64,000 nt of DNA from Bacteroidota bacterium (GTDB lineage Bacteria; Bacteroidota; Bacteroidia; M30B66), in the NCBI GenBank assembly GCA_027483445.1, contig JAIXUS010000005.1, forward strand, positions 204,927 to 268,926. The letters run 5' to 3'. Shown one piece after another: positions 33,241 through 36,601 of the stretch. The translations under genes were made by a program, and so were the position numbers. The notes beneath the pieces are model-generated. The model ran no database searches. It saw only the letters and a list, made by a program, of their open reading frames with translations, and was not told the origin of the DNA. The first letter of the stretch is position 1; each line of letters starts with the position of its first letter.

Positions 33241-34899
33241 ATGGATTCAATCAAACTGATTGTTAACATCATCATTCTTTTACTCATTCATGCCGGACTT
33301 TTTGGCATTTTTCGCAAAGCCGGAAAACAAGGCTGGGAAGCCTTTATTCCCGGGTTTAACCTTTGGGTTTGGCTAAAACTGGTCGAAAGGCCGTGGTGGT
33401 GGATCATTTTACTGCTCATTCCCGGAGTAAACATCATGATGTTTCTCGTACTCGTTTTCCTCACACTTCGCAATTTTGAGGTCGAAAAAACAGGCGAAAT
33501 CATTTTCGGTATTGTGTTCTCGCCGGTTTACCTTGCTATGCTTGGGTTTACTGAGAAGTATCGTTGGATGGGCAACGATTACTGGAAGAAATACCCGCGC
33601 AATACCGCTACCGAATGGTCAGAAGCCATCGTGTTCGCCATCGTCGCGGCCACTGTTATCCGTTCCTTTTTCATCGAAGCCTTTACGATTCCGACGCCTT
33701 CCATGGAAAAATCGCTGCTCGTGGGCGATTACCTTTTCGTGAGTAAAGTAAGCTACGGCTCAAAAGTGCCTAACACGCCGCTAACGGTTCCGTTTACGCA
33801 CCATACATTACCGTTCACCGATCATACGCCATCCTACTCAACCTGGATTGAGCTGCCTTATCTCCGTTTTCCGGCTTTGGGTAAAGTGAAAAACAACGAT
33901 GTAGTCGTGTTTAACTTTCCCGAGGGTGATACCGTGATTGCTGAGCGCCAAAACGAGTCGTACTACGACATTGTTCTTCGCGAAGCCATGACACTGGCCG
34001 AAAACCAAGGTAAAGACCCGGAAAAAGACCGCAACGAACTCCTCCGCCAAGCCCGGCAAACCATCAATTCGCAGTACACACTGTTGTACAGACCTATAGA
34101 TAAGCGCGACAATTACGTGAAGCGCTGTATAGGAATTCCGGGCGACAAAGTGGAAATCCGCGACCGACAGGTATTCATCAACGGCAAACAGGCGCAAAAT
34201 CCTGATTTGCTTCAGTTCGAATACTTTGTGAAGTTTAATTCAGCCGTTCCCAAAAAGACTTTCGATAAACTCGAAATCACCGACAACGTGAACGAGCAAC
34301 TCAACCAGCAAGTGATGCAGCTCAATCTGAACAAGCATAACCTGGAGAAGTTGCAGACACTCAATGCCTTCGATGCTTACCAGCCTGTAATTGCGGCCCC
34401 ACAGATGTATGATTATCGCAGCTTTCCACACATGCCATCACTGCCATGGAATCGCGATAATTTCGGTCCACTCGAAGTTCCCCGCGAAGGGGCGACTGTT
34501 AACTTAAGCCTCGAAAACCTTCGGATGTACGAGCGCATCATCCGCGATTTCGAACACAACACCCTCGAAGTCAAGAATAACCAGATTGTCATCAACGGCC
34601 AGCCTGCCAATCGCTACACCTTTCAGCAGGACTATTATTTCATGATGGGCGACAATCGACACAACTCTCTCGATTCGCGCTTTTGGGGCTTTGTTCCTCA
34701 CGATCACGTAGTTGGAAAGGCGGTATTCATTTGGATGTCGAAAGGCGACAACCGACCCTTCCCCGGAATTCGTTACGAACGCCTGTTTAGCTTTATCACC
34801 ACCGAAGGCGTAAGCAAATCGTACTTCTTTTGGATTATGATTCCGCTGCTCATCGGCATTTTCGCCTGGAACAATCGTAAACGCTGGTTTAACCGCTAA
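33241..34899 (+). CDS. lepB: signal peptidase I, long Bacteroidota form
   Basis: 552 aa. The first about 110 residues are a membrane domain with three hydrophobic segments resembling DUF5684. The peptidase part has the Ser/Lys dyad: Ser154 in TIPTPSMEKSLL and Lys294 in RDNYVKRCIG, then GDNRHNSLDSRFWG. A large insert of about 115 residues separates the two S26 boxes. One more hydrophobic helix closes the protein at about 525-545. It removes Sec signal peptides at the inner membrane, on which the exported proteins in this window depend. Confidence 0.93.
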   Translation: MDSIKLIVNIIILLLIHAGLFGIFRKAGKQGWEAFIPGFNLWVWLKLVERPWWWIILLLIPGVNIMMFLVLVFLTLRNFEVEKTGEIIFGIVFSPVYLAMLGFTEKYRWMGNDYWKKYPRNTATEWSEAIVFAIVAATVIRSFFIEAFTIPTPSMEKSLLVGDYLFVSKVSYGSKVPNTPLTVPFTHHTLPFTDHTPSYSTWIELPYLRFPALGKVKNNDVVVFNFPEGDTVIAERQNESYYDIVLREAMTLAENQGKDPEKDRNELLRQARQTINSQYTLLYRPIDKRDNYVKRCIGIPGDKVEIRDRQVFINGKQAQNPDLLQFEYFVKFNSAVPKKTFDKLEITDNVNEQLNQQVMQLNLNKHNLEKLQTLNAFDAYQPVIAAPQMYDYRSFPHMPSLPWNRDNFGPLEVPREGATVNLSLENLRMYERIIRDFEHNTLEVKNNQIVINGQPANRYTFQQDYYFMMGDNRHNSLDSRFWGFVPHDHVVGKAVFIWMSKGDNRPFPGIRYERLFSFITTEGVSKSYFFWIMIPLLIGIFAWNNRKRWFNR

Positions 34900-35208
34900 A
34901 TCGCCACCAAAGCGAGAGCCGCCGTATAGCCTTTACAATTTGACAGCCTCGAAACAGTAACATGTTGAGCGGCCTCGACAAGCGATTTTTTTTGGGCGCC
35001 TGCCTGTTTGAGTTTTGCTATACGCTTCGACTTTTTCGGGGGGCACCGCGCCATACGCCTTAGCCCCGAACCGCTGCGCATTCGGGGGCTGCCGGCTTCT
35101 GTCGCTGGCGCTTACTTATACTTCGTTTGAAATGAAGCTTCAATAAACATGCTGTTTGATAAAAGAAGGTAAGCTTTTCACTAGATGCAACCTTGCTTGG
35201 AAACGCAT
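34900..35208. other. 309-bp intergenic region holding repeat copy C
   Basis: It lies between the convergent ends of lepB and the 81-aa gene. The middle is the GC-rich repeat. No ORF of substance: the frame at 34896-35081 runs across the repeat and has no family features. No promoter is expected between convergent genes, and I see no clean U-tract terminator. Confidence 0.6.
34984..35110 (+). repeat. GC-rich intergenic repeat, copy C
   Basis: T8 run, then GGGCGCCTGCC, then after about 35 bases GGGCACCGCG, and a hairpin AGCCCCGAA (35062-35070) with TTCGGGGGCT (35081-35090). The T run, first hairpin and GGGCACCGCG are shared with copy B at 17.9 kb in the same order and spacing. No coding potential is visible. 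Confidence 0.65.
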
Positions 35209-35454
35209 TTAATGCGATTCTTTGTGCTTTTTATAGACCATCTGGCAAACCTTATCCATTGCCTTGAAAACAGGAACATCTAGATTCGGGGAGCGCGTTA
35301 AGCTGGTTAAGGTTAGTACAGCATTGTAAAGGATTTCATTCTCATCGCGCTTTATACGCTCTAAAAAAATCACTTTATTGCTCCCTTTTGAAGATTCGGA
35401 AACGATTACTTCTGAAGTGTTTACATCAATTGCAAACAATATACTGTTGTCCAT
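35209..35454 (-). CDS. 81-aa protein of unknown function
   Basis: A small frame of 81 residues starting MDNSILFAIDVNTSEV, mostly alpha/beta and rather basic at the end (YKKHKESH). No signal peptide and no cysteines except one. It lies 24 bases downstream of the secreted HNH nuclease gene in the same direction, so the two are probably one transcript. A cytoplasmic partner, immunity-like or regulatory, is conceivable, but nothing in the sequence proves a function. Confidence 0.6.
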   Translation of the reverse strand: MDNSILFAIDVNTSEVIVSESSKGSNKVIFLERIKRDENEILYNAVLTLTSLTRSPNLDVPVFKAMDKVCQMVYKKHKESH

Positions 35455-35478
35455 TTTTTTTAAGTGAATTGGAATTTA

Positions 35479-35889
35479 TTAATGCAAGTGGCATCTCCCG
35501 CTGGAATTGGTTGTTCGGTTCCTGCAACGAGCTCCCTTTTTGGTTGTTCCCGAGCATTGTTGAGCAGTGGTCGAAGATTTCCTACTCGGCTTATCATCAC
35601 AACAATTATATCCGACCTTCTTGTTGTGAACCTTGCAGTAACAGCTATTCGATTTACTACGGTTGCACCGTTGACAAAGCAATTGAATATTGGAAACTTC
35701 ACTGTTTCCTCCGCATGAAAAAGGAATAACATGATCATATTCTAAACTTTGAGCACTTCCGCAGCATTGACAAACCCCGCCATCTCTGTTGTAAACAATC
35801 TTTTTTGTTGTTGCTGAAACATATCTGCTTTGCGAAAAGCAAAAGTTGGCCAGCAAAAGCAAAAAAAGAATCAAACGCATTTTTTTCAT
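35479..35889 (-). CDS. secreted HNH endonuclease with C-terminal Cys/His motif
   Basis: 136 aa from the ATG at 35889 (a Lys-rich start, then a hydrophobic signal ending CFSQS). The HNH core is CQCC, then EYDHVIPFSCGG and CQRC, giving two Cys pairs around the catalytic His in DH. After a short linker the C-terminus holds CSGTTKKGARCRN and GRCHLH, which resembles the small DUF5763 zinc module. Export plus HNH suggests an extracellular or periplasmic DNase. The spacer upstream is AT-rich. The gene has an 81-aa companion downstream. Confidence 0.82.
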   Translation of the reverse strand: MKKMRLILFLLLLANFCFSQSRYVSATTKKIVYNRDGGVCQCCGSAQSLEYDHVIPFSCGGNSEVSNIQLLCQRCNRSKSNSCYCKVHNKKVGYNCCDDKPSRKSSTTAQQCSGTTKKGARCRNRTTNSSGRCHLH

Positions 35890-36064
35890 AGAAATCAATC
35901 TGTTTTAAATCGTGTGTAACTCCAAATTAAAAAATTTATTTAACCAAAGTTTGTTAGTCAATAAATCCACCACGACGCTCTTCTTTGGTTGTTGGTGATT
36001 TCAAATCCCATGCATAATCTTTGTTTTCAATAAAGATGAAAGTACGTGCTATCGAACCATGTTT

Positions 36065-36601
36065 TTAGGTCATCAAAAAGGTTTTACGATACAGCTCACG
36101 GGCTTCCTCAATAAAACTCCACGCGGATTTTGCATCGAGGGTTTCCTCAATGACTACCCTGTTCATTTTTTCCAGAGCCTTATAATCTTGGAAAAATCTC
36201 AGCGTTTCCTGTAAAATCCAAGGTGGCAGCTGTTCTAAACTGGTAATTCCGTCAAACGACACGTCATTCGCGGCAACGGCCAGAATTTTATCGTCGGTTT
36301 CCTCCTTGTCGCGCATGCGCATCACTCCAATTACTCGGGCTTCCACAAGACAGAGTGGGGGCAATTCTGCCTGACAAAACACTAAAATGTCCAAAGGATC
36401 ATTATCGCCGGCAAAGGTTTGCGGAATAAATCCATAATTAGCAGGGTAGCGCACGGCTGCAAACAACATACGGTCGAGTTTCAGTAGGCCGCTTTCTTTG
36501 TCGATTTCAAATTTGGCCTTGCTGTGTTTCGGAATTTCAATCACTGCTCTTACAGTGCCTTCTTGCTCCGAAAAGGAGTGGATATCGTGCCAAGGGTGCA
36601 T
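36065..36601 (-). CDS. ppa: inorganic pyrophosphatase
   Basis: 178 aa, normal for the family I soluble enzyme. Motifs: EIPKHSKAKFEID near the N-terminus, RYPANYGFIPQTF, GDNDPLDILV (the metal-binding Asp cluster) and VGVMRMRDKEETDDKI. It hydrolyses pyrophosphate to drive biosynthesis. It is 5 bases after the DUF421 gene in the same direction, so probably cotranscribed with it. Confidence 0.95.
   Translation of the reverse strand: MHPWHDIHSFSEQEGTVRAVIEIPKHSKAKFEIDKESGLLKLDRMLFAAVRYPANYGFIPQTFAGDNDPLDILVFCQAELPPLCLVEARVIGVMRMRDKEETDDKILAVAANDVSFDGITSLEQLPPWILQETLRFFQDYKALEKMNRVVIEETLDAKSAWSFIEEARELYRKTFLMT

Follow-up and report, generated by a model that had tools for sequence, protein, structure and literature searches.

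A putative secreted HNH nuclease and its constant small partner: a candidate DNase-antidote gene pair of the Bacteroidota

Two small adjacent genes of a Bacteroidota genome, one encoding an HNH nuclease with a signal sequence and the other an 81-aa protein without one, belong to a pair whose constancy is established, the association going far beyond chance. The reading that we favor, at a probability of roughly two in three, is that the locus consists of a secreted DNase and a dedicated cytosolic antidote, moved as a minimal two-gene unit; what we infer of this reading is the export, the DNase activity, an inhibition through direct binding, and the benefit. If it is true, the pairs constitute a new secreted nuclease-antidote family in several families of Bacteroidota, many of them known from metagenome bins alone, and there would be both a reason for a small exported nuclease to have a partner that stays inside and a function for a "hypothetical protein" in dozens of genomes. 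The partner may also serve as a high-affinity DNase inhibitor, and one would have to ask how a two-gene unit without mobility genes moves.

The pair lies between ppa and lepB in a stretch of 64,000 nucleotides (contig JAIXUS010000005.1), the whole of which is called the window here. The features to which we refer are the following.

33241-34899, plus strand: lepB, signal peptidase (name given from sequence)
34977-35135: intergenic repeat, dispersed; 34990-35140 is matched, with 69-100% identity, at 24 places in the genome
35112..36076, no strand: segment holding the pair and unaligned to the lepB-ppa region of the congener (G004, L121); approximate, from blastn blocks
35209..35454, minus strand: partner open reading frame, 81 aa from ATG, without signal sequence (open reading frame list)
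35455..35478, minus strand: intergenic gap, 24 nt (sequence)
35479..35889, minus strand: HNH nuclease open reading frame, 136 aa from ATG (open reading frame list; PF01844, E 8.6e-12)
36601-36065: ppa, inorganic pyrophosphatase (name given from sequence)
Nuclease residues 1-19: signal sequence
Nuclease residues ~24-83: HNH core
Nuclease residues C83, C85, H88, C96, C97: Cys/His cluster
Nuclease C-terminal part: variable linker, then a DUF5763-like zinc module with C112, C122, C133 and H136

This layout, with both genes on the minus strand, agrees with a preliminary description of the locus, which had the HNH gene followed after 24 bases by the 81-aa gene in an AT-richer patch adjoining a repeat element; GC content is 0.40 at 35001-36000 as compared to 0.43-0.52 in most of the adjacent kilobases. 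A promoter for the partner gene would not fit into so short a gap, and co-transcription of the two genes is therefore presumed. The Bacteroidota promoter consensus is matched 5' of the nuclease gene only marginally better than in shuffled sequence (7.8/10 vs 7.3), and with an alternative start, the TTG that lies nine bases further 5', the nuclease would have 139 aa.

The two proteins

The nuclease matches PF01844 at 45.5 bits (cut-off 21.4), all 42 of its homologues match the profile too, and both the catalytic H/N positions and the structural zinc cysteines that mark membership of the HNH group are conserved: D52, H53, N67, N76, C40, C43 and C75 are invariant among the 42 and C72 is kept in at least 90%. 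Its N-terminus, MKKMRLILFLLLLANFCFS-Q, is by inspection a Sec-type signal sequence of typical Bacteroidota type, in line with the preliminary description, and looks like one that is cut before Gln, a common style in this phylum; hydrophobic N-termini with an (S/A)QSR ending recur among the homologues. The C-terminal Cys/His module, likewise noticed at the outset, is borne out by the invariance of its four zinc-ligand candidates in 42 sequences. Intact nucleases are ~135-149 aa long and have a single architecture, the mature protein of the window being ~117 aa. The HNH core is like those of IscB/Cas9 and of phage HNH endonucleases (PF01844; phrog_7785, E 7.7e-15). Residues 19-95 match the NCBIfam IscB profile at E 1e-10, which is far below the IscB cut-off, and the core gives weak matches to PDB entries 4ogc and 4h9d and to IscB. 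Unlike IscB and Cas9, the window nuclease has no RuvC or guide domains and has a signal sequence and a C-terminal module of its own.

The partner, as had been described, has no signal and shows no hydrophobic N-terminus. It has no match in Pfam, NCBIfam or PADLOC and reaches PHROGs only at E 0.14; no sequence relatives were found in the PDB at E below 0.28, nor any consistent Pfam family. An AF2 model built from a 43-sequence alignment is predicted with a pLDDT of 94.4 and a pTM of 0.82 as a beta-beta-beta-alpha-alpha fold. With this model, Foldseek returned nothing from the PDB and BFVD at E<=0.001, and the best VIA score, Z 5.0 to part of Hsp70, is at background level. No match of the partner to barstar, NuiA or the colicin Im proteins was found, and a shared fold could still escape such searches. 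Many inhibitors of basic DNases are strongly acidic; the partners, with a pI of about 4.5-9.5, are not. Among the papers searched, none dealt with such a nuclease-partner pair. Both the partner family and an HNH enzyme built in this way appear to be new, and the antidote family and the pair seem to be undescribed so far.

The two genes are in frame, and with the two TAA codons between them taken as Gly (a modelling device only), we joined them in a single chain, treating in-frame homologue pairs likewise. The fused chain is predicted with a pTM of 0.63, and 67 of its 207 residues have a pLDDT <50. By our own estimate, a pTM of ~0.4 would be expected if the 81-aa domain alone were placed, so the model does to some extent predict how the nuclease core and the partner are placed relative to each other; this is a weak hint, which could be wrong, that the two proteins dock.

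Pairing and one-sided decay

A scan of 84,980 species genomes that was seeded with nuclease peptides only returned 62 loci. Combined with loci from related genomes, and after removal of duplicate contigs, these gave 48 distinct loci with a full-length nuclease, 64-78% identical to the window protein. The partner gene is directly downstream and in the same orientation in all 48, at a distance of 9-34 nt in 47 of them; at L059 the partner gene runs off the contig end. When profiles of each protein were run against 395 related genomes, a full-length nuclease was detected in 21, the partner in the same 21 (at neighbouring coordinates) and neither in the other 374; this set overlaps that of the scan and the carriers, although not all independent of one another, come from several families. 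The preliminary description had proposed co-occurrence as a check on an immunity role and had named two kinds of counter-evidence, the nuclease alone in relatives and the partner without the nuclease. The pairing is complete in both samples and no intact nuclease without a partner was encountered among the 48 loci. Partners without a working nuclease gene do exist, and they stand beside broken nucleases (L046, L087 and L095), an arrangement that speaks more for an antidote than against one.

The distance matrices of nuclease and partner are correlated (Mantel r 0.52), a value that none of 5000 permutations reached. The partner evolves faster than the nuclease, with a mean identity of 62% as compared to 69%. 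For both genes, most dN/dS values of close pairs fall at 0.04-0.25 (0.04-0.23 for the nuclease), indicating purifying selection. Partner identity ranges from 41 to 70% across several families, with pairing kept in unrelated neighbourhoods. An ordinary extracellular nuclease lying next to an unrelated hypothetical gene by chance or recent common descent is contradicted by these figures and hardly deserves consideration, even if extracellular nucleases are common in Bacteroidota.

As to the broken nucleases, at L046 (G024:C3) all that is left next to an intact partner frame is a stub resembling a signal sequence and the final 25 residues, and the same genome has an intact pair on another contig. 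L095 retains the C-terminal module as the sole remnant of the nuclease, then an intact partner. At L087 the partner is intact and the nuclease is frameshifted, a frameshift that could be an assembly error. The partner has therefore been kept at three loci, or at two if L087 is set aside, and, few as the cases are, its outliving of the nuclease is as predicted for an antidote and argues against a subunit or chaperone. From the sequence data taken together, the partner is likely a cytosolic inhibitor of the nuclease.

Genomic settings of the pair

The window pair is an insertion relative to the genome of a congener (G004), a point absent from the preliminary description. In the congener lepB, the repeat and ppa (93% identical) are present and the site of the pair is empty, 153 bp lying between the points that in the window enclose ~965 bp with the pair. 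Blocks of blastn alignment between the two end at 35111 and resume at 36077, which places the exact junctions only approximately. The congener carries its own pair on another contig. Conversely, the pair is located beside a TerC-like gene in two other genomes (G001 and G003), and in the window genome that gene (80% identical) has no pair beside it. The neighbouring genes are mostly for housekeeping functions and differ from lineage to lineage, sites being common to near relatives only. The largest named families are scattered in a tree of 44 concatenated pairs, and the Chitinophagaceae require six changes for eight rows, no better than shuffling, with the proviso that the taxonomy of metagenome-assembled genomes is imperfect. 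The best reading of these comparisons is that the pair moves horizontally between Bacteroidota genomes as a two-gene unit. Two loci with the titles Rhizobium and Alphaproteobacteria (L049 and L060) have a Bacteroidota-like position in the tree, and the flanks of L060 match Bacteroidota as well, so these are probably misbinned metagenome contigs.

Several vehicles for such movement were considered and set aside. Around the pair loci we found no conserved flanking DNA, element ends or mobility genes, and mobile-element ends were ruled out for want of conserved flanks. Prophage or plasmid cargo was rejected, searches of phage records, plasmids and IMG/VR having yielded no close relative, as was a defence island, the neighbours being mostly housekeeping genes. 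Of defence genes, only a Type ISP restriction-modification gene recurs as a neighbour, and it does so in one small clade. At L091 and L092 the pair lies at the 3' end of this gene, the last 161 bp of which recur beyond the pair, 66-67 bp downstream of it. The same gene lies upstream at L060, and L072 has a short remnant at a different site. The repeat reads as the record of a duplicative insertion in one clade, a record that does not reveal the mechanism.

The intergenic repeat next to the window pair was also tried as a part of the module and ruled out, since it is dispersed in the genome and is present at the empty site of the congener. Many of its copies cover a palindrome, GCCCCGAA...TTCGGGGGC, and its predicted RNA fold is ordinary (z -1.0). 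Another palindrome, of ~40 bp (TTCCCAAAAATAA...), occurs at L058 (Polaribacter) on either side of the pair, ~19-60 bp upstream of it and 84-125 bp downstream.

Proposed mechanism, alternatives and related systems

In the mechanism that we propose, the HNH protein would be exported by Sec, bind zinc through its Cys/His clusters and cut DNA outside the inner membrane. The partner would stay in the cytosol and bind nuclease molecules that fold before export or that re-enter from kin, so that the producer's chromosome would be spared and kin would be protected from the re-entering enzyme. An internal antidote would be needed because the enzyme, rich in cysteines, could fold around zinc while still in the reducing cytosol and cut the chromosome. 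It counts against the antidote reading that a cytosolic inhibitor would meet the mature enzyme only before export or after re-entry, and that the partners are not strongly acidic. The benefit could lie in killing non-carriers, in digesting extracellular DNA for nutrients or in blocking DNA uptake; sequence does not tell antagonism from nutrient scavenging.

The alternative that fares best is a bacteriocin-like or toxin-antitoxin role, in which the nuclease kills neighbouring or post-segregational cells that have no partner and the partner confers immunity, following the logic of colicin E9 and Im9. It has the same pair biochemistry as the secreted DNase with cytosolic antidote, with a different benefit, so that the probabilities of the two overlap, and we take it as a tentative possibility that falls well short of an even chance. 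The sporadic, scattered distribution and the one-sided decay resemble those of effector-immunity loci, and a signal-less partner goes well with a DNase whose site of action is the cytosol. Colicin E9 is an HNH DNase with a co-encoded signal-less protein of ~85 aa, much like the window pair. However, colicins have domains for receptor binding and translocation and are released by lysis; Im9, moreover, is all-helical, which differs from the predicted beta-beta-beta-alpha-alpha partner. Profiles of Pfam, NCBIfam and PADLOC recognised no domain for receptor binding, translocation, T6SS, T9SS or other trafficking in the nuclease, which at its small mature size would enter cells by an unexplained route. 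Full-length homologues show no N-terminal domain-swapping polymorphism, nor is there the large modular N-terminal delivery region with an exchangeable C-terminal toxin that defines polymorphic toxins. A self-sufficient weapon or addiction unit, i.e., an exported DNase that somehow reaches the cytosol of neighbouring Bacteroidota and so selects for carriers of an antidote of unmatched fold, strikes us as doubtful, although it would explain the spread across families without mobility genes.

It is unlikely, to our minds, that the partner is an accessory protein, e.g., a chaperone for export, an operon regulator or a subunit. Strict pairing by itself is no proof of inhibition, and the partner is conserved to the degree expected of a functional subunit. 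Yet survival beside a broken nuclease is unexpected for a dedicated chaperone or subunit, and a protein without a signal would not accompany an exported enzyme. Still less credible is a selfish homing-type element, in which the nuclease drives its own insertion with no benefit to the host. In its favor, homing endonucleases are numerous among small free-standing HNH proteins, the pair travels without any other mobile gene and at L091 and L092 it sits at the Type ISP gene whose end is duplicated. Against this, homing needs a shared target site, and no conserved flanking DNA was found, the neighbours of the pair differing in nearly every lineage; a signal sequence would remove the enzyme from the chromosome, and both genes are under purifying selection.

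The secreted DNase with a cytosolic antidote, in comparison, has the organisation of barnase and barstar, namely a signal-bearing nuclease (as judged by inspection), an adjacent small gene without a signal and obligate pairing. The division of labour is the same and the sizes are similar, barstar having roughly 90 aa; barnase, by contrast, is an RNase of another fold from a Gram-positive host, and the sequence and fold searches with the partner did not bring up barstar. In that system, from Bacillus amyloliquefaciens, an inhibitor inside the cell protects the producer of the small secreted nuclease (PMC8625414). Anabaena PCC 7120 provides a further pair in NucA, a DNA/RNA nuclease, and its protein inhibitor NuiA; a role in nutrition, and at times in killing, is ascribed to nucleases of this type (PMC4890671). 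The classical HNH proteins do not include NucA, and the window partner does not match NuiA. NuiA is also the larger of the two, and NucA is of the Endonuclease_NS kind, a superfamily that in Bacteroidota has the C-terminal module in common with the window nuclease.

This module is related to DUF5763 (PF19067), the cut-off of which is not reached by the window protein; four of the 42 homologues match at E<=0.01 (best 6e-4), and other secreted proteins with a related module pass the profile. The same Cys/His pattern ends secreted Endonuclease_NS nucleases and small secreted proteins at loci from the same scan. Beside the Endonuclease_NS nucleases that bear it there is no conserved downstream gene and the 81-aa partner is absent, which makes the partner specific to the HNH enzyme, not to the module. 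None of the papers searched deals with DUF5763, and the function of the module is apparently undescribed; our guess would be that it binds DNA or the cell surface. The module is C-terminal, and sometimes present in two copies, at L021, L022, L029, L094, L096, L098-L105, L108 and L109.
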